DNA of 64,000 nucleotides. Origin: Herpetosiphon aurantiacus DSM 785 (GTDB taxonomy: Bacteria; Chloroflexota; Chloroflexia; Chloroflexales; Herpetosiphonaceae). The notes under the pieces were generated by a model that worked only from the letters and a program-made list of their open reading frames with translations, had not been told where the DNA came from and made no database searches. Location of the stretch: positions 5,161,199 to 5,225,198 of the forward strand of contig CP000875.1 in assembly GCA_000018565.1 (NCBI GenBank). Direction: 5' to 3'. Made by a program: the position numbers and the translations under genes. The first letter of the stretch is position 1; every line of letters begins with the position of its first letter. This document shows positions 9,813 to 47,075 of this stretch, one piece after another.

Positions 9813-10291
9813 CCATCGTTTATTTAGCCATCGGCAGCAACCAAGGCGATCGTTTAGCCAACTTACAAGCGGGCTTAGCCGCTTTAGCTCCCGCTGTGCA
9901 ACTAACCAACTACTCAAGCGTTTATGAAACCGCAGCGGCCTACGTTGAAGATCAACCGCCGTTTTTGAATGCGGTGGTTGCTGGCACAACCGAATTAGCG
10001 CCACATGCGCTGTTAGCCTTGCTCAAGCAGATAGAGCACGATTGTGGCCGCCGACCTGGCTTGCGTTACGGCCCGCGCCCGCTTGATCTTGATATTTTGT
10101 TGTATGGCGAGCTTGAATTGCAAACCAATGACTTGATTATTCCACATTTGCGGATGTTCGAGCGTGATTTTGTGTTGCGACCCTTGGCCGAAATCGCCCC
10201 CAACCAGGTCAATGCTGAGCAACTTGCCCAAGCAACCCAAGGCAGCGTTTTAGCTGTTGTCTACTCAGCCAAGCAATTACAGGGCAGATGA
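9809..10291 (+). CDS. folK: 2-amino-4-hydroxy-6-hydroxymethyldihydropteridine diphosphokinase
   Basis: HPPK transfers pyrophosphate from ATP to 6-hydroxymethyl-7,8-dihydropterin in folate synthesis. The 160-residue length is normal. Motifs are LAIGSNQGDRLANL at the N-terminus, the central SSVYETAA...QPPFLNAVV and the signature GPRPLDLDILLYG with the metal-binding DxD. It starts with GTG overlapping the lipase stop (GTGA), so it is translationally coupled to an apparently unrelated gene. No other folate genes are in the window. Confidence 0.97.
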   Translation: MTIVYLAIGSNQGDRLANLQAGLAALAPAVQLTNYSSVYETAAAYVEDQPPFLNAVVAGTTELAPHALLALLKQIEHDCGRRPGLRYGPRPLDLDILLYGELELQTNDLIIPHLRMFERDFVLRPLAEIAPNQVNAEQLAQATQGSVLAVVYSAKQLQGR

Positions 10292-10296
10292 AAAAA

Positions 10297-13200
10297 TTAT
10301 TTTTTAGCGCGTCTGACCACAATAGCAACCATCATCGAGCCACGATTATCGCTCAAACAGACATCGGCACAATGCGCATCATTAATTCCAAGTCGTAAGA
10401 TTCCCTGATAGTTCGGGGCTTGAATGCTCGATTCTTTGCCAATTGCAAACTTCCAATCGCCAATTGAGCCAATTAATTGCCCATAATTTGCAGCTGGCAG
10501 TGTTGTCCAATCGTAATGCTGGTTTTGATACCCATCAGCATTAACGAATGGTAGACTATTCATATCAGTTGTCCAAGAACCTTTTTGAGCTATAAATTCG
10601 ATTGTATCGCCAGGTTGAACATAGATTGGCGTATATTTCCAATCACGATCAGCAGCAACCTCAACGACTTCACTAACAATTGGATTAGTTAAATCGGCCA
10701 CAAAAAACGTAATTCTTGTAAAGTCAGCAATAGCTCGCCAATCACCAGCCTCATCTTCAAACATTGGCTCTAGAAAATAATTACCTGGCTGATCATAAAT
10801 TCGGCTAGCCGTAAATGTATAGGTTTTGTATGGTTCTATCAGAATATTCTGAACTGAAGGAAAATCCATTGTGGAGGCACTCCAGCCTTGTTCTAAGACG
10901 TTAGGACCACGTGCCCCTGCGACTAAGTTTCGGAGTAAAGCTGGTTTAGCCTTATGGTTTCTTAAACTAAATGTCATTGTTACTCTTGTCCCGACGGCGA
11001 TAGTATCATAATTTTGGATAAAACGACTACCATCAAATAAACGAGTTCGCCAAAATTCACCATTCTCAGCTTGTTGATTAACTAAACGAACATCAACATC
11101 AAACCAGACTTTTGGTTGTGAGGCTACTTTTTCTAGCGATAATAAATCGGTTTTTAAAATAAATGTTATGCCAATGCCAAGCATAAATGCCATACAGATT
11201 AATGCTAAATTATATTTCTTGGATTGTTCTTTGACTTGAATATCTGAATGGAGCATTTCTAGCTTGGGCTTTTTAATTAATGGAGTTGCTTGCTCAGTTG
11301 ATTGTTCATGGATCAGAGTCGGAATAGCTATTTCCATTGGAATTGATAACTCGATTGTTGTACCTTGATCGATAATCGAACGTATTTCGATGATACCATC
11401 AATATTTTTTGTGCGCTCATACATCGTCATCAAGCCAGTGCTATTTTGTTTAATATCTTTATCAATCTCAAAACCAACACCATCATCAATGATTGACAAG
11501 GATAACATAGCATTATTTTTACTAAATGTAATATTAATATTTCTTGCTTGAGCATAAGCAAGGGTATTTGCAACTGCTGAATGAATAATCCGAAAAATAT
11601 CACGTTTTTTGTCAATTGATAGATTATTCCAAAGATTCAAATCATCTCTTGGTGGCATTTCCCAATGAAGTTCGATTTGTTGATGTTGAATAAGCTCACG
11701 AATTAGCCGATGAATTTCTGGTAAGAAATTCTTTTTTACACCTGGAATTGCAATTTGTTTTTGAATGATAAAGCGTTTCAGGATTTCTACTGTTTGGTCG
11801 GTCGAAGCTTTGTATTGAACAAGTCGAGCTTTTGTATCAGGTGTAATCTGATCAAACTCACAGATCATATCAATGCCAAGCGTAACCGAGTTTAGTTTGC
11901 CTAAAATATCGTCGTGAATAACATGATTGATATCACCAAAAATACTATCACGCGCCTTGATAATCCTTTGGATAATTTGGTTGATTAAGATTAACTGATT
12001 TTTCGCCAGCACAAACCAACTCAAATATTGAGTGATTAATCGAATAAGCTCATAGTCTTTGGTATCAAAATCTTCATTGGTAATTTTTGGCCCAAGGTAT
12101 AAGTATCCAATTTGATTGTTGTTATTGTCATACACAATTTCTCGATGTTTATAGAACTTACTGAGCGAGTTTGAAAACGATCCTGCTTCAGAATTGTGCT
12201 CAAAAAATAAATCAATTGGCTCGTTTTCCATAATATAAAAATGTTCAGATGTTTTGATAATATTCTTTTCGATCACAAAACGCAAAGATTCTATCTCTAA
12301 TTGCTTAGTCAAATAATCAATTGATGAGTAGATTGCTGAATGAATATCTTTAGTGATATCAAGATGGTTTAACAAGCCAAACAATATTTCAGCATCATTT
12401 TGATGGCGCAGGAAATATTTTTCAAATATTCTACGAAATGGGTTGTCGATATACCAGAAAATTGAGGTAATTACTGCAACAAAGAAGATATTGATAAATA
12501 TAATTCCATTAATTTCAATATAACTATTAATAAGGATTGAAATATCCACAATAACCGCACTAATCAAAATTATCATTAATAAATCTAAGCTAAATGAACG
12601 TTTTGCATGAACTGATTCATAACGTAATAGCGTAAATGCAGTCCCAGCTGCCGGAATGACTAATAGAAATAAGCCAAAAAATATTGATTTCCCGATTATT
12701 GGTAATTTTAAATTAAATTCCTGATACACAATCATCAATATAACGTTGAATAATCCACCTATTAACCAAGTGGTAAACGCAATTTTAGCTTGCAAAATAA
12801 TTTTCGATTTAGTTTGATGGCGATAGGTGATCCAGAGATATGCCCAACGAATTAATGTAAAGCTAAATCCGATGATAAATATGGTCGCAATGATATAGTT
12901 GGCTTGATTGGAAATTGTAGGAATATTACTTTTACCTGAGGCAATATTAATAATAACATAGGTATATAAAGCAATACTAAAGAGCGAAGGGATATACAGC
13001 ACATATTTAAACCCATGATAACGCTCAATCTTTACTGGAAAGATATACCCTAAATGAAAGAAACTTCCACCAAGTAGTGCTAATGGCACTACAGTTGCAA
13101 CAAGGGTAAGATATTCGCCAAAATCTGGTACTCTATGCCGAATACTTGTAATAGCTAAAGCAAGAAACCAAAGAATATAACCAAATACAATATTATTTTC

Positions 13201-13668
13201 CTTATCTGGGTTTGAAATTAATACAATAATACCTAGAATCCATAGTAATGCTGCGGTAAGGATGATTGCTAAATAGATTTGTAAAATATGATGAATACTA
13301 ATTTTTGTGATTGGTAGATAAACGGTAAACTGAGATTGATCGCGTCTAATTTCTACCGGTACAAAGCGATTAGCATAATCTAGCTCTAGTTTCTTCTTCA
13401 GATGATCAATCATTTCTGGCGAATTATAACCATAACCTGAAACACTGAGAATACAATCGCCTGGTGCAACAATTTCTTGGGCAATGGGCATCCATTCAGC
13501 TGGGGTTATAGCATGAATTTCATTACAATTGTTTATTGCAGACCAATAGGTAATTAATTCAAGCGCTGGATCATCAATCGTGTTTAAGCTAGTTCGAACG
13601 GAAATTGCCATTGAGATGACAACAAAACATCCAAAAAAGATGCTAATTACACGCATTATGTATTTCAT
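10297..13668 (-). CDS. Membrane histidine kinase with C-terminal lectin-like domain
   Basis: A 1123-residue sensor kinase with unusual order. There is an N-terminal membrane span and an extracytoplasmic PDZ-like segment (about 25-125). About ten membrane spans follow (125-405), then a GAF-like region (430-560). The dimerisation helix has phosphoacceptor His585 in NHVIHDDILGKLNSV (NarL/ComP type). The ATPase domain (690-780) shows NTLAYAQ, IIDDGVGF and TGLMTMYER. Another span (819-838) comes next, then about 280 extracytoplasmic residues whose last 120 resemble the PA-IL/LecA fold (IYVQPGDTIEF, NYGQLIGSIGDW, LRLGINDA). The gene is visibly AT-richer than its neighbours. It overlaps the response-regulator gene as ATGA. 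Confidence 0.85.
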   Translation of the reverse strand: MKYIMRVISIFFGCFVVISMAISVRTSLNTIDDPALELITYWSAINNCNEIHAITPAEWMPIAQEIVAPGDCILSVSGYGYNSPEMIDHLKKKLELDYANRFVPVEIRRDQSQFTVYLPITKISIHHILQIYLAIILTAALLWILGIIVLISNPDKENNIVFGYILWFLALAITSIRHRVPDFGEYLTLVATVVPLALLGGSFFHLGYIFPVKIERYHGFKYVLYIPSLFSIALYTYVIINIASGKSNIPTISNQANYIIATIFIIGFSFTLIRWAYLWITYRHQTKSKIILQAKIAFTTWLIGGLFNVILMIVYQEFNLKLPIIGKSIFFGLFLLVIPAAGTAFTLLRYESVHAKRSFSLDLLMIILISAVIVDISILINSYIEINGIIFINIFFVAVITSIFWYIDNPFRRIFEKYFLRHQNDAEILFGLLNHLDITKDIHSAIYSSIDYLTKQLEIESLRFVIEKNIIKTSEHFYIMENEPIDLFFEHNSEAGSFSNSLSKFYKHREIVYDNNNNQIGYLYLGPKITNEDFDTKDYELIRLITQYLSWFVLAKNQLILINQIIQRIIKARDSIFGDINHVIHDDILGKLNSVTLGIDMICEFDQITPDTKARLVQYKASTDQTVEILKRFIIQKQIAIPGVKKNFLPEIHRLIRELIQHQQIELHWEMPPRDDLNLWNNLSIDKKRDIFRIIHSAVANTLAYAQARNINITFSKNNAMLSLSIIDDGVGFEIDKDIKQNSTGLMTMYERTKNIDGIIEIRSIIDQGTTIELSIPMEIAIPTLIHEQSTEQATPLIKKPKLEMLHSDIQVKEQSKKYNLALICMAFMLGIGITFILKTDLLSLEKVASQPKVWFDVDVRLVNQQAENGEFWRTRLFDGSRFIQNYDTIAVGTRVTMTFSLRNHKAKPALLRNLVAGARGPNVLEQGWSASTMDFPSVQNILIEPYKTYTFTASRIYDQPGNYFLEPMFEDEAGDWRAIADFTRITFFVADLTNPIVSEVVEVAADRDWKYTPIYVQPGDTIEFIAQKGSWTTDMNSLPFVNADGYQNQHYDWTTLPAANYGQLIGSIGDWKFAIGKESSIQAPNYQGILRLGINDAHCADVCLSDNRGSMMVAIVVRRAKK

Positions 13669-14423
13669 CGATCATTCTCGGATAAATAGGCATAAATCGA
13701 GGCTAGGAAAATCAGGGTATCACGGTGTTCTTCGCGTTTGCGTAAATCTAAATATTCGTAAATATCATCTTTATAAGTTTGAACGGCATGGATTGAAAGT
13801 GATAAGGCTTCAGCAATAAATTTTGGCTTCCAAGCAATCAGAGGCACAATCCGTTGAAGATGATTTGGCATAGTTGGCAGTTGAGGAGCAATCGCTTTAA
13901 CTTGCTCGATCAGGCTCGTATCGATCATTGATAAGAAAATTTTGGTGGCCCCAACCAAGGGAATTTGACGATCTTTGCAAAATAAACGACTCTCACCAAT
14001 CCGCAGGGTTTCGAGGGCTTCACGGTAAATCGCAATTGATGCGCCTTTTTCAACTCCAACAATTCGTCCAAAGCCTTGTGCCCACAATTCAACGATGTGC
14101 TCAAAGAGCCAGCGATATGAGGTAACGACGATAATGCCGAGCCATGGCATTTTTTGCTTGATCTGCTGAATAACCTTGAGGCCGTTGGCGGCATCATTTT
14201 CATAACGCACTTGGTCGCGATATACCTGCTCGCGATATTCCATTGGCATCAGTAAATCAACTACGGCTAAACTCCAATCATTTTGATGAGTATCAAGTTT
14301 GGCAAGCGCCTCATTCACCGAGCGGGCTGAATCTATCGCATATCCCATTCGTTGAAATAGATCAATCGTTCCAGCCAAGAAAATCTCATCATCATCGGCG
14401 ATAAATACTGTTGGTATTGACAT
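13665..14423 (-). CDS. Response regulator with atypical C-terminal domain
   Basis: A 252-residue protein beginning with a receiver domain: acidic pocket Asp10-12, phosphorylation site Asp56 in VVDLLMP, Thr101 and Lys126. About 18 extra residues (MEYREQVYRDQVRYEND) follow the DLLMP loop and are absent from standard receivers. The C-terminal part (160-250) has a weak helix-turn-helix-like stretch (FIAEALSLSIHAVQTYKDDI) that resembles LuxR-type DNA binding but is degenerate. It is the first gene of the operon with the large kinase and is presumably its partner. A GAGGT site precedes the ATG. Confidence 0.85.
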   Translation of the reverse strand: MSIPTVFIADDDEIFLAGTIDLFQRMGYAIDSARSVNEALAKLDTHQNDWSLAVVDLLMPMEYREQVYRDQVRYENDAANGLKVIQQIKQKMPWLGIIVVTSYRWLFEHIVELWAQGFGRIVGVEKGASIAIYREALETLRIGESRLFCKDRQIPLVGATKIFLSMIDTSLIEQVKAIAPQLPTMPNHLQRIVPLIAWKPKFIAEALSLSIHAVQTYKDDIYEYLDLRKREEHRDTLIFLASIYAYLSENDR

Positions 14424-14463
14424 ACGTACCTCATTTAAGCCAATTAGGGTTGCTTAATCGGCT

Positions 14464-14472
14464 ATTATAGCA
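14464..14472 (-). promoter_or_regulatory. Extended -10 promoter of the regulator-kinase operon
   Basis: Read on the minus strand this is TGCTATAAT, a perfect extended -10. It lies 41 bases before the response-regulator ATG, and the -35 position is poor. It defines one side of a 415-base divergent gap (14424-14838) that also holds a terminator-like hairpin and triple direct repeats. Confidence 0.6.
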
Positions 14473-14558
14473 GGCATATTCTGCTCTTTTGGTTTCTCAT
14501 TTCAGAATAATACCCAACAAATTAATCAATGGTCATATTGTAGATGGCGGCACGAATC

Positions 14559-14588
14559 AAAAGTACCCTAAATCTAGGATACTTTTTT
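14559..14588 (+). terminator. Terminator-like hairpin inside a divergent intergenic region
   Basis: AAAAGTACCCTA (14559-14570) pairs with TAGGATACTTTT (14575-14586) with one mismatch and a 4-base loop. Six T residues end the structure. This is a classic Rho-independent terminator shape, yet both flanking genes point away from it. It may end an unannotated short transcript or insulate the two promoters. Confidence 0.55.
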
Positions 14589-14760
14589 GGGCTATTTTTC
14601 TGTGGGTTGATGGATGGGTTCTAGTATCAATATGGTGTTAGGTAAATAGTTGTTTATTTTCCTGACTCTCGCGTAATTTATAGGTTGACTGTGTTAAACC
14701 TGAATCTTCGACCCGCATGCTTGTAATTTGTCACAATAGTTTGGCCAATACGAGGTATGG

Positions 14761-14838: not shown

Positions 14839-17800
14839 ATGCCACGGTTGGTGCTTCAACTCGCTTTGCTCGCCGCACTTATCGTTCGTTTTAATCTCCC
14901 CGCCGCGCAAGCGCAACCTCAAGCTTTTGTCGCTCCTGAAGAATTACAGGCTGTCGCCGATGATCAATTTTGGAATAATACAGGCTTGATTGCTGGGGCA
15001 AATAACACGATTCGCGCCATCAGTTCGCAATCAGGCGATTTATTTGTTGGTGGTTTGTTCGATCGCATCGCTGGCATCAGTGCCAATCGGGTGGCTTTTT
15101 GGGATGGCGATCATTGGAATACGATGGGCAGTGGGGTTAACGGCCCAGTCGATGATCTCGATGCTTCAACTGGCGGTTCAGTTTATGTGGTTGGCTCCTT
15201 CAGCAGTGCTGGTGGAATTGCCGCCGATGGCATTGCTCGTTGGAATTCTGGCACAGGCCAATGGTCGGCCTTGGCGACCAACGTCAATGGAGCTGTTACC
15301 GCCGTTTTGGTGCAACAGGTCGCTGGCAGTGATGTGGTGTATGTTGGTGGAACGTTTAGCTCAATTGATGGGGTGAGTGCCAACCGTATCGCTAAATTCA
15401 GCAATGGCTCATGGTCGGCATTAAGCAGTGGGATCGGCGGTGGCACTGCTCCCCAAGTGCTCGATTTAGCGATCAATCCGGCCAATGTCAACCAACTTGT
15501 GGCTGGGGGCACGTTTAGCTCGGCTGGTGGTAGCACTGCCAACAATGTAGCGATCTGGACAGGCTCAGCTTGGCAGAGCCTTGGTACGGGTAGCAGCAAT
15601 GGGGTCAACGGTGCTGTGCGTTTTGTTGATTTCCGTGGCACAAATATGGTGGTCGTTGGTGGGAGTTTTAGCAATGCTGGCACTGTTACCAATGTTGGTG
15701 GTGCAGCGGTTTGGACTGGTGGCAATACCTGGGCAGCCATGGCCGGACGTGGGGTGACTGGCGATGTGCGTGGGATTGTCGAGAACGCCAATTTTACCTA
15801 TGTGATGGGCAATTTTGGCAGCGGTATCAACCCCAATGGCAATAGTGTTTTCTCGCCCAATATCGCCCGTTGGGATGGTAATATCTGGTCGCCTGTACCG
15901 AATGCCACCAATGCCTTTGGCACAAATGGGGCAATTTTACGGGCTGAACGCTTGGGCAGCGGCAGCGATACCTTCTTTATTGCTGGGGCGTTTGGCACAG
16001 CCCATGGCATGGAATTGAATTTTGTGGGCATGGTTGTGCCACAACAGGGCTTCTTGCCTGGCGCAACTGATCGCTTTTTCCCCTTGGCTGGTGGCCTCGA
16101 AGGCTCCAACGCCAAAGTTTTTGCCATTCAGCCACGTTCTGGCGAAATTATTGCTGCTGGGCGCTTCGATCTGGGCAGTAATCGCTTGCTCAATAATATC
16201 GCTCGCTTTGATCCTGTTGATCGAGTCTGGTCGCCGTTGACTGGCTCCAGTGATAGTGGAGTCAACGATGATGTGCGTGATCTTGCGTTGCGCAACACCG
16301 ATTTGATTGTTGTGGGTGAGTTTAGCAAGGCTGGTGGCATTGATGCCGCAGGCGTAGCTAGTTGGAATGGCACAACCTGGACTGCCCTCGCAACCAGCAT
16401 CAATGGTCGGGTCAACGCGGTTGCGATCAGTGGCAGCGATATTTATATTGGCGGCGAATTTACGCTGATTGATGGTGTGCCTGCCAATCGGATTGCCCGT
16501 TTGAGTGGTGGTTCATGGCAAGCTGTCGGCGCTGGCACTGATGGCCCTGTCAATAGTTTGTTGTTCAAATCGAACCAACTCTATGCTGGCGGCTTGTTTG
16601 CCAACGCTGGTGGTGCGCCTGCCAGCAATCTTGCCCGCTGGAACGGCACAACATGGCAAGCAATCGGGGTGGGCACTGATGCCGAAGTGTTAGCTTTGGC
16701 CGATGTTAATAGCACGACTGTGGCAGTTGGTGGGCGGTTTACCAGTGCTGGTGGGGTTGCCAACACCCGCGCAGTTGCTCTGCTTAACCACAGTAGTTTG
16801 GCATGGACGGCGCTTGGCACTGGCACTGATGGCTATGTAACCAGCCTCGTCGTGCGCGGTGACGATTTGTATGCTGGTGGTTTGTTCAGCCGCATGGATG
16901 GCTTGACGGTCAATCATGTGGCGCGGTGGAATGGCACAACTTGGAATGCCTTGGGTAGTGGGGTTGCGGGTGGCAACCTGCAAAATAGCGAAGTTGGAGC
17001 CTTAGCGGTCAATGGCGATAATCTGTATGTTGGTGGACGTTTTGATCGGGCTGGCGATAAAGTTTCGCATCGCTTTGCTGAATGGCGACAACCCGAAGTT
17101 GATCTCAGCCTCAAACTGAGCGAATCGCCTGATCCGGTGACGATTGGCAATCCTATGAGCTATAAAGCCACCGTCAGCAATTTGGGCACGATCAGCGCCA
17201 GCAGCGTCGTGTACGAACAAACCTTTGCCAATACATTAGTTTTTGGTCAAGTTACAACCTCGCAAGGCTCATGTAGTTTCCCCAATTCTACGACCTTACG
17301 TTGTAATTTAGGTACGCTAGCGGCCAATGCTAGTGCCAATATCACAATTAATGCTACGCCCAGCCAAGTTGGCACAATTAGTAGCACGGGCACGGCTTCA
17401 TCGCCTGCGAATGAGGCTTTTCCAAGCAACAATAGTCGTAGCGTTGCAACTCAAGTGATTGTGCCTGGTAATCCAGTGCCAAGCATCAGCAACATCACGC
17501 CTGATCGCTTTATTCGCCAGCCGATTGGCTTTCCACCGCCGCCAGCAGTGCGGATTACAGTCAATGGCACGGGCTTTGTGGCCAATTCCAAGGTTGTGGT
17601 AGCTGGGGTTGAGCGCACGACAACCTTTATCAATAGCAATCGGCTGGAATTTAGTATGGCCGCAACCACCAGCCAAGGCACATACTCGGTTTTGGTGCGC
17701 AACCCCACGCCAGGCGGCGGCGATTCCAACAGCGTAACCTTGGGGGTTTCGGTTGGCATCGTTGGCTTGAGCAGCATCACGCCCAACCTTGGTGGCACTG

Positions 17801-18243
17801 ATGTCGATCTACAAACAACCTTCAATGTAAGCTGGACGCATACCACCGATCCATGGCGAATTATCGAGCACCTCGATTTGCGCTTGGTCGATAGCGATGG
17901 TGTGGCTTTATGGGCACGCTTTACCGAAGGCGTTTCGGGCACATTTAGCCTGCTCGATGCCAATGGCGATGTGCTTGGTTATGCCACGGCTGGCAGCAGC
18001 GATCCATTGGAGAGCGATAGCGCCATCCTCGATTTGGCGGATAGCAACTTTGCTGGCAGCGGGCCGACAGGCTTTAGCATGCAAGTCAATTTCAGCATTC
18101 GCTTCAAACCAAGTGCCGCTGGTCGTCGCTATAACATCGAGTTGTATGCCACCGATGATCATGGCGGGGTACAAGGGCCAGATGTGATGGGCACATTCAC
18201 CGTTGGCATTCACGATGTATATCTGCCAATGACCATTAAATAG
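14839..18243 (+). CDS. Secreted beta-propeller protein with C-terminal adhesion-type domains
   Basis: A 1134-residue exported protein. A Sec signal peptide (LVLQLALLAALIV ... AAQAQ) leads into about 16 short repeats with patterns like VYVGGTFSSIDGVSANRIAKF and W.ALG.G, typical of kelch/delta-60-like propellers (about 45-750). A DUF11-type repeat follows (VDLSLKLSESPDPVTIGN, about 755-870). Then come an IPT/TIG-like domain (PSISNITPDRF, about 880-980) and a final beta domain. The last residues are HDVYLPMTIK, a short tail shared with other exported proteins here. GGAGG precedes the ATG. It probably acts at the cell surface or outside; its ligand is unknown. Confidence 0.88.
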   Translation: MPRLVLQLALLAALIVRFNLPAAQAQPQAFVAPEELQAVADDQFWNNTGLIAGANNTIRAISSQSGDLFVGGLFDRIAGISANRVAFWDGDHWNTMGSGVNGPVDDLDASTGGSVYVVGSFSSAGGIAADGIARWNSGTGQWSALATNVNGAVTAVLVQQVAGSDVVYVGGTFSSIDGVSANRIAKFSNGSWSALSSGIGGGTAPQVLDLAINPANVNQLVAGGTFSSAGGSTANNVAIWTGSAWQSLGTGSSNGVNGAVRFVDFRGTNMVVVGGSFSNAGTVTNVGGAAVWTGGNTWAAMAGRGVTGDVRGIVENANFTYVMGNFGSGINPNGNSVFSPNIARWDGNIWSPVPNATNAFGTNGAILRAERLGSGSDTFFIAGAFGTAHGMELNFVGMVVPQQGFLPGATDRFFPLAGGLEGSNAKVFAIQPRSGEIIAAGRFDLGSNRLLNNIARFDPVDRVWSPLTGSSDSGVNDDVRDLALRNTDLIVVGEFSKAGGIDAAGVASWNGTTWTALATSINGRVNAVAISGSDIYIGGEFTLIDGVPANRIARLSGGSWQAVGAGTDGPVNSLLFKSNQLYAGGLFANAGGAPASNLARWNGTTWQAIGVGTDAEVLALADVNSTTVAVGGRFTSAGGVANTRAVALLNHSSLAWTALGTGTDGYVTSLVVRGDDLYAGGLFSRMDGLTVNHVARWNGTTWNALGSGVAGGNLQNSEVGALAVNGDNLYVGGRFDRAGDKVSHRFAEWRQPEVDLSLKLSESPDPVTIGNPMSYKATVSNLGTISASSVVYEQTFANTLVFGQVTTSQGSCSFPNSTTLRCNLGTLAANASANITINATPSQVGTISSTGTASSPANEAFPSNNSRSVATQVIVPGNPVPSISNITPDRFIRQPIGFPPPPAVRITVNGTGFVANSKVVVAGVERTTTFINSNRLEFSMAATTSQGTYSVLVRNPTPGGGDSNSVTLGVSVGIVGLSSITPNLGGTDVDLQTTFNVSWTHTTDPWRIIEHLDLRLVDSDGVALWARFTEGVSGTFSLLDANGDVLGYATAGSSDPLESDSAILDLADSNFAGSGPTGFSMQVNFSIRFKPSAAGRRYNIELYATDDHGGVQGPDVMGTFTVGIHDVYLPMTIK

Positions 18244-46888: not shown

Positions 46889-47075
46889 GTTTTGATCCAC
46901 GAAGAGCACGAAGAGTTGTAACCACGAAGAACGCGAAGAGCGCTAAGGCTGGTTTCGTGGTTCGCAAGATACTCCCCGACCTCTCTCCTACTACGGCGGG
47001 GCGAGGGGCATTCCAATTTTCATGATGGGATGGTTCCCCCCCGCCTCGCGTGCGGGAGAGGGGGTGAGGGCATGC
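46889..47075. repeat. Right composite repeat (families A and B) flanking the CHAT gene
   Basis: From left to right: family A units (46894-46964), then a family B unit (46973-47075), the reverse order and orientation of the left copy. Its reverse complement matches the left copy in long blocks, including ATGAAAATTGGAA, TTGCGAACCACGAAACC and the GCCCTCACCCCCT end. The remaining gap 46812-47105 holds no gene. Confidence 0.85.

Follow-up and report, generated by a model that had tools for sequence, protein, structure and literature searches.

A histidine kinase of Herpetosiphon aurantiacus DSM 785 carries, behind its ATPase domain, a predicted further membrane span followed by an Ig-like and a LecA-like domain. 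In our best explanation, to which we give an even chance, a PDZ-10TM-HisKA_3-HATPase kinase, which forms a two-component system of the NarL class with the adjacent response regulator, has been fused to a module of single span, Ig-like and LecA-like domain, and this tail would tune the kinase. Of this explanation, the following is read directly from the sequences: the domain order, which two species share, a C-terminal fold of the LecA type, and the occurrence of the module on other membrane signalling proteins.

Kinase core, response regulator and predicted topology

The window, i.e. the whole stretch of 64,000 nucleotides that was analysed (C1:5161199-5225198), belongs to a genome of 6,785,430 bases in three contigs (among them C1 with 6,346,587 and C2 with 339,639 bases). 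The features of the locus are listed in Table 1.

Table 1. Features of the kinase locus with their positions in the window. Residue numbers refer to the kinase.
Feature	Position	Strand	Basis
Histidine kinase gene, 1123 aa, ATG start	10297..13668	-	ORF + Pfam
Membrane span 1, residues 4-25	13594..13659	-	Hydropathy
PDZ-like extracytoplasmic loop, residues 26-125	13294..13593	-	Weak: PDZ_2 E 0.13
Membrane spans 2-10, residues 129-408	12445..13284	-	Hydropathy + flanking charges
Cytoplasmic GAF-like linker domain, residues 416-560	11989..12423	-	Assigned by eye
Dimerisation/H-box region, residues 561-685, His585 in HVIHDDILGK	11614..11988	-	Conservation in homologues
HATPase_c, residues 688-779; N701, DDGVGFE 728-734, GLMTMYER 745-752	11332..11607	-	Pfam + motifs
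Predicted membrane span 11 after the ATPase, residues 819-838	11155..11214	-	Hydropathy + homologous spans
Ig-like beta-sandwich domain, residues 857-993	10690..11100	-	AlphaFold model + fold match + identity
LecA/PA-IL-like domain, residues 998-1123	10300..10677	-	Profile + fold
Cognate response regulator (receiver with insert + LuxR-like HTH)	13665..14423	-	Response_reg E 3e-9 (Pfam, receiver)
Block absent at the site in five other Herpetosiphon genomes; inversion breakpoint	10282..14725	.	Genome comparison

The HATPase_c match lies above the Pfam cut-off (E 2e-6), the N, G1 and G2 boxes were all located, and the nearest solved ATPase domain is that of VraS (4gt8, E 1.6e-9). His585-Asp586 aligns with the H-boxes of the homologues, and the His-Asp pair is kept in every homologue covering this region. 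The kinase itself has no direct Pfam match to HisKA_3; a homologue from another Chloroflexota family (genome G262) matches this family with E 2e-10. The regulator gene overlaps the start of the kinase gene by 4 bp. Its HTH was assigned by homology, the copy in H. llansteffanensis matching GerE with an E-value of 6e-4 that lies below the cut-off.

Two further peculiarities of the pair were observed. In the receiver, the phospho-acceptor Asp is followed by an unusual insert (about residues 60-80), which is also found, in a shorter form, in the regulators of H. llansteffanensis and G262. In the kinase, the Gln position of the DxxxQ phosphatase motif after the H-box (window 11899-11916, residues 585-590) is occupied by Gly590, by Ala in H. 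llansteffanensis and by Gln in G262. With Gly590 in place of the Gln, the phosphatase activity of the kinase may be reduced.

At the N-terminus, the PDZ-like loop gave eight weak PDB matches (E 0.14-0.34), which are PDZ fragments of an aq_1964 site-2 protease homologue or YlbL. The motif PGDCI is kept in the loops of both Herpetosiphon kinases, and GDCI in all homologues. The Pfam search returned no match for the GAF-like linker.

Hydropathy analysis indicated about ten N-terminal spans within residues 4-408 and one further span at about residues 820-838, the most hydrophobic stretch behind the N-terminal ones (mean Kyte-Doolittle value 2.3). In this Ile-rich protein, 7% of composition shuffles reach the observed maximum, and in the H. 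llansteffanensis copy 17% do. Hydropathy by itself does not decide on span 11, and a proof by hydropathy only was rejected as too weak. The peak is, however, found at the homologous place in both Herpetosiphon kinases, 97-99 residues ahead of a common motif of the Ig-like domain, and in three XRE-type proteins that share this Ig domain, spans of much higher hydropathy lie 79-86 residues ahead of that motif. That residues 819-838 are not inserted into the membrane and the tail stays in the cytoplasm, as the 7-17% of matching shuffles would allow, is therefore very improbable in our view, given the span in the second species, the far more hydrophobic spans of the XRE proteins, and the conserved cysteine pairs and lectin and Ig folds, which are typical of exported domains. 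The span proposed at this place in the sequence-only reading is thus supported by its relatives, its hydropathy being marginal. From the even number of N-terminal spans and the positive stretch after span 10 we infer that the kinase core lies inside and, with the 11th span, that residues 840-1123 face the outside. The predicted topology hence agrees with the proposal of a kinase core held between two membrane regions with about 280 residues outside.

The outer domains and their occurrence on other proteins

The proposal of a LecA/PA-IL-like C-terminal end was borne out for the last 126 residues by a sequence profile and a predicted fold. LecA-like copies were gathered by searching Chloroflexota genomes with both Herpetosiphon tails, followed by a search with profile A2, which comprises 13 Chloroflexota LecA-like domains including that of the window kinase. 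Against the PDB, LecA-type lectins were the sole matches of A2 above background (1e-7 to 1e-4), namely PllA (5odu, 1.1e-7; 6ygq, 3.2e-7; 30ew, 2.4e-6) and LecA (1l7l, 1.3e-4; 3zyb, 1.4e-4); the next chain followed at 0.43. The last 126 residues of the window kinase do not themselves match Pfam PA-IL (PF07828), which is matched by 3 of the 13 profile members (best E-value 2.8e-6), and a Pfam search with the tail alone gave chance matches only (LysM, CusF). Because its own PA-IL match is absent, we call the domain LecA-like on the strength of profile and fold and do not count it as a member of PF07828.

For structure prediction, an AlphaFold model of the tail was built from a 4-sequence alignment (pLDDT 69.6); a full-length model from two sequences reached a pLDDT of 37.8 and was discarded. 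Residues 161-286 of the tail model (998-1123 of the protein) match PllA 5odu (Z 8.9, rmsd 3.8, 98 residues, 29% identity) and LecA 4cp9 (Z 8.9, rmsd 4.0, 102 residues, 28% identity), a Z-score near the level that common arrangements also reach. This lectin match emerges in the VIA re-alignment and not in the raw Foldseek ranking, where Ig-like, complement and transglutaminase folds lead and no lectin is among the top 50 for the whole tail model. Model residues 20-156 (857-993 of the protein) match Ig-like sandwiches, and the Ig-like domain has 30-40% identity to its counterparts in H. llansteffanensis and in the XRE proteins. The fold search suggested for the tail has thus yielded a LecA-type fold, preceded by an Ig-like one. 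Taking profile and model together, the LecA-type fold of the C-terminal domain is well supported.

D1097 and D1107-N1108 align to residues of the LecA calcium site. The sugar-contact loop of LecA (His50/Gln53 region) is not alignable to the tail domain, and the corresponding part of the tail model is the least confident one (pLDDT 37-46, model residues 201-220). The calcium loop holds an insert with two cysteines (C1100 and C1104, C-x3-C) that are conserved in both species. Owing to the unaligned sugar-contact loop and the cysteine insert, sugar specificity or sugar binding is only putative.

The outer domains are not restricted to histidine kinases. Three HTH_3/HTH_31 (XRE-type) proteins (L025, L039 and L040) carry the Ig-like domain behind one span, with 32-40% identity to the window kinase. 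These membrane-bound HTH proteins probably represent a family of one-component regulators in Chloroflexota. A Ser/Thr kinase with one span and a PASTA domain ends in a LecA-like domain (L064, G020:C35:42745-43110), and in a Ser/Thr-kinase-like protein with one span and repeat-propeller-like stretches in its outer part, a LecA-like domain was recognized by eye inside that part (L055, G427:C2:56833-57174). Also by eye, a TPR protein (L026) was found to end in such a domain, which is likewise present on several one-span or secreted proteins. The presence of Ig-like and LecA-like pieces behind a single span in XRE regulators and Ser/Thr kinases indicates that the tail is a shuffled extracellular module. 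On the predicted architectures, the plan of cytoplasmic effector, one span and outer Ig and/or lectin-like domain recurs in Chloroflexota, and the kinase has adopted it. No second domain of this type was found in the own genome, a scan of viral contigs, limited to the Ig-like domain by the high variability of the LecA-like alignment, gave no relative, and a plasmid search gave no match.

Relatives of the kinase and origin of the gene pair

The search for other kinases of this domain order, proposed in the sequence-only reading, led to H. llansteffanensis CA052B, where the same order of regulator, kinase, span, Ig-like and LecA-like domain is present in a copy that is split over a contig break. 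Identities amount to 43% for the core, 41% for the tail and 42% for the response regulator. Since the domain order is intact at about 40% identity, it was kept by selection over a long divergence. Homologues lacking the tail were found in one genus of the same taxonomic order (three genomes), with open frames of 794-816 codons ending shortly after the ATPase, and in G262, where a regulator with a similar receiver is followed by a kinase ending at the ATPase domain. Because of these tail-less homologues elsewhere in Chloroflexota, the tail is most simply regarded as an addition to an older PDZ-10TM-GAF-HisKA_3-HATPase kinase, of which the PDZ part is weakly supported and the GAF part assigned by eye; tail loss in the other lineages would be a less simple alternative. 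Of 101 ATPase-type loci inspected in this genome, no other continues behind the ATPase into a span and an outer tail; what looked hydrophobic at these loci belongs to receiver, PP2C-like or unrelated regions.

The claimed AT-richness of the gene was confirmed: its GC content is 34.6% (GC3 28%), compared with 43% for the response regulator and 48-54% for nearby genes. Throughout the kinase, in core and tail alike, GC3 stays at 0.24-0.33, and different sources for core and tail were rejected on account of these uniformly low values. The homology that the other Herpetosiphon genomes show to the window ends at 10278-10281 and resumes at 14725-14727. Two of them (G001 and G003) have the folK end joined to window position 46947-46965, and a third (G002) has position 14727 joined to 47116. 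It follows from these junctions that a block of 14.7-47.0 kb is inverted relative to the congeners and that the kinase/regulator pair sits at a breakpoint. The inverted block spans about 32 kb (window 14725-46965), with breakpoints at 10281/14725 and about 46965/47116. In H. llansteffanensis, the pair lies at another locus with unrelated neighbours. The simplest reading is that kinase and regulator were acquired horizontally as a two-gene cassette. The suggested separate origin thus stands for the gene pair, whose site is empty in five congeners and whose GC content is unlike that of the neighbours, but not for the tail as opposed to the core.

Divergent from the regulator lies a gene (14839-18243) for a predicted secreted Rax2-like propeller protein with DUF11. 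The gene is conserved across the six Herpetosiphon genomes, at 88-97% in the five others, and has a 55% paralogue. It is a candidate target of the regulator; its promoter region predates the insertion.

Proposed role of the tail and comparison with known systems

In the proposed mechanism, an ancestral PDZ-10TM-HisKA_3-HATPase kinase would have gained the shuffled module at its C-terminus, so that the ATPase domain, linked to span 11 by about 40 residues, would be tethered to the membrane at both ends. The LecA-like domain may bind a glycan or another surface ligand via the retained acidic/Asn cluster. A tail with bound ligand would hold back the ATPase domain or make it cluster, and would thereby alter the phosphorylation of the adjacent response regulator, an input that would add to that of the N-terminal PDZ/10-span region. 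Glycan sensing by the tail is a plausible hypothesis. More tentative, and falling short of an even chance, is the wider reading that a glycan signal enters via the lectin domain at the ATPase end, that both membrane ends control the core, and that a swappable cassette of span, Ig and LecA domain serves histidine kinases, Ser/Thr kinases and XRE regulators in Chloroflexota.

Among the alternatives, the one we take most seriously, at about one chance in four, is that the tail is an anchor which binds a glycan of the cell wall or sheath, or an exopolysaccharide, and localises the kinase without signalling, while the N-terminal PDZ/10-span region acts as sensor. This N-terminal region is kept in the tail-less homologues, so the kinase can work without a tail, and the LecA-like fold is also seen on one-span and secreted proteins that have no signalling domain; in the Ser/Thr kinases and XRE regulators, however, the same type of module sits after a single span, which is the usual place of an outer C-terminal sensor domain. 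Rather improbable is a LecA-like domain that has lost sugar binding and recognizes a protein partner, e.g. a lipoprotein or a secreted peptide: the non-conserved sugar-contact loop and the additional C-x3-C insert would fit, but both species and most of the family retain the Asp and the Asp-Asn that match the calcium ligands of LecA. Hardly credible, and the least probable of the readings considered, is a decaying, horizontally acquired gene that is functionless in this strain. The AT-richness, the position at a species-specific breakpoint, the degenerate ERxR motif before the His and the lacking Pfam HisKA_3 match speak for decay; against it stand 1123 open codons with every catalytic motif kept, the orthologue of the same order at about 40% identity, and the operon-like overlap of regulator and kinase.

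Models of kinase signalling mostly assume an ATPase domain that can swing freely and a signal arriving from the N-terminal or DHp side. In the present kinase, by prediction, a C-terminal span of its own fixes the ATPase domain to the membrane and links it to a lectin-like ectodomain. The effect of a tail of this kind could be judged against the tail-less homologues, which form a natural control. Beyond this kinase, the finding suggests that three signalling classes share an outer sensor cassette in a phylum on which few experiments have been done. Our literature search, with most subscription journals outside its coverage, gave no histidine kinase with a C-terminal lectin domain and no report on this gene.

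The order of core, span and outer C-terminus is not unprecedented. For AbsA1 of Streptomyces coelicolor, GFP fusions mapped four spans at the N-terminus, a single one towards the C-terminus and a C-terminal domain outside the cell (McKenzie and Nodwell 2009, as cited in PMC3881020, PMC9739842). According to these citing descriptions, it resembles the window kinase, whose own regulator is probably of this type, in its pairing with a NarL-type regulator and in the order of core, span and outer C-terminus, and differs in having four N-terminal spans instead of ten; they mention no lectin-like domain in its outer part, and the likeness considered here is one of topology. The window kinase shares this plan by prediction, with a span after the ATPase and then a large outer domain, and within the literature found, as far as these descriptions go, AbsA1 is the only experimental case of a tethered ATPase domain. 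PASTA-type membrane Ser/Thr kinases likewise combine a kinase, one span and outer C-terminal ligand-binding domains, and the Chloroflexota member in G020 even ends in a LecA-like domain, but they have a Hanks-type kinase instead of a histidine kinase. In the RsgI anti-sigma-I factors of Clostridium thermocellum, outer C-terminal polysaccharide-binding modules are found (PMC4711584). These proteins have an N-terminal cytoplasmic effector, one span and an outer C-terminal carbohydrate-binding domain linked to polysaccharide sensing; the effector is an anti-sigma factor, not a kinase, and the modules are CBM3, PA14 or GH10, not of the LecA type. The galactose-binding lectins LecA (PA-IL) and PllA share the fold as well as the aligned Asp and Asp/Asn-Asn of the calcium loop, but they are small and free-standing, whereas the domain described here forms the end of a membrane kinase, and its sugar loop is altered and a C-x3-C has been inserted. 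An outer C-terminal domain on a kinase is thus already known from AbsA1, and a lectin-like outer tail on a histidine kinase appears to be new.
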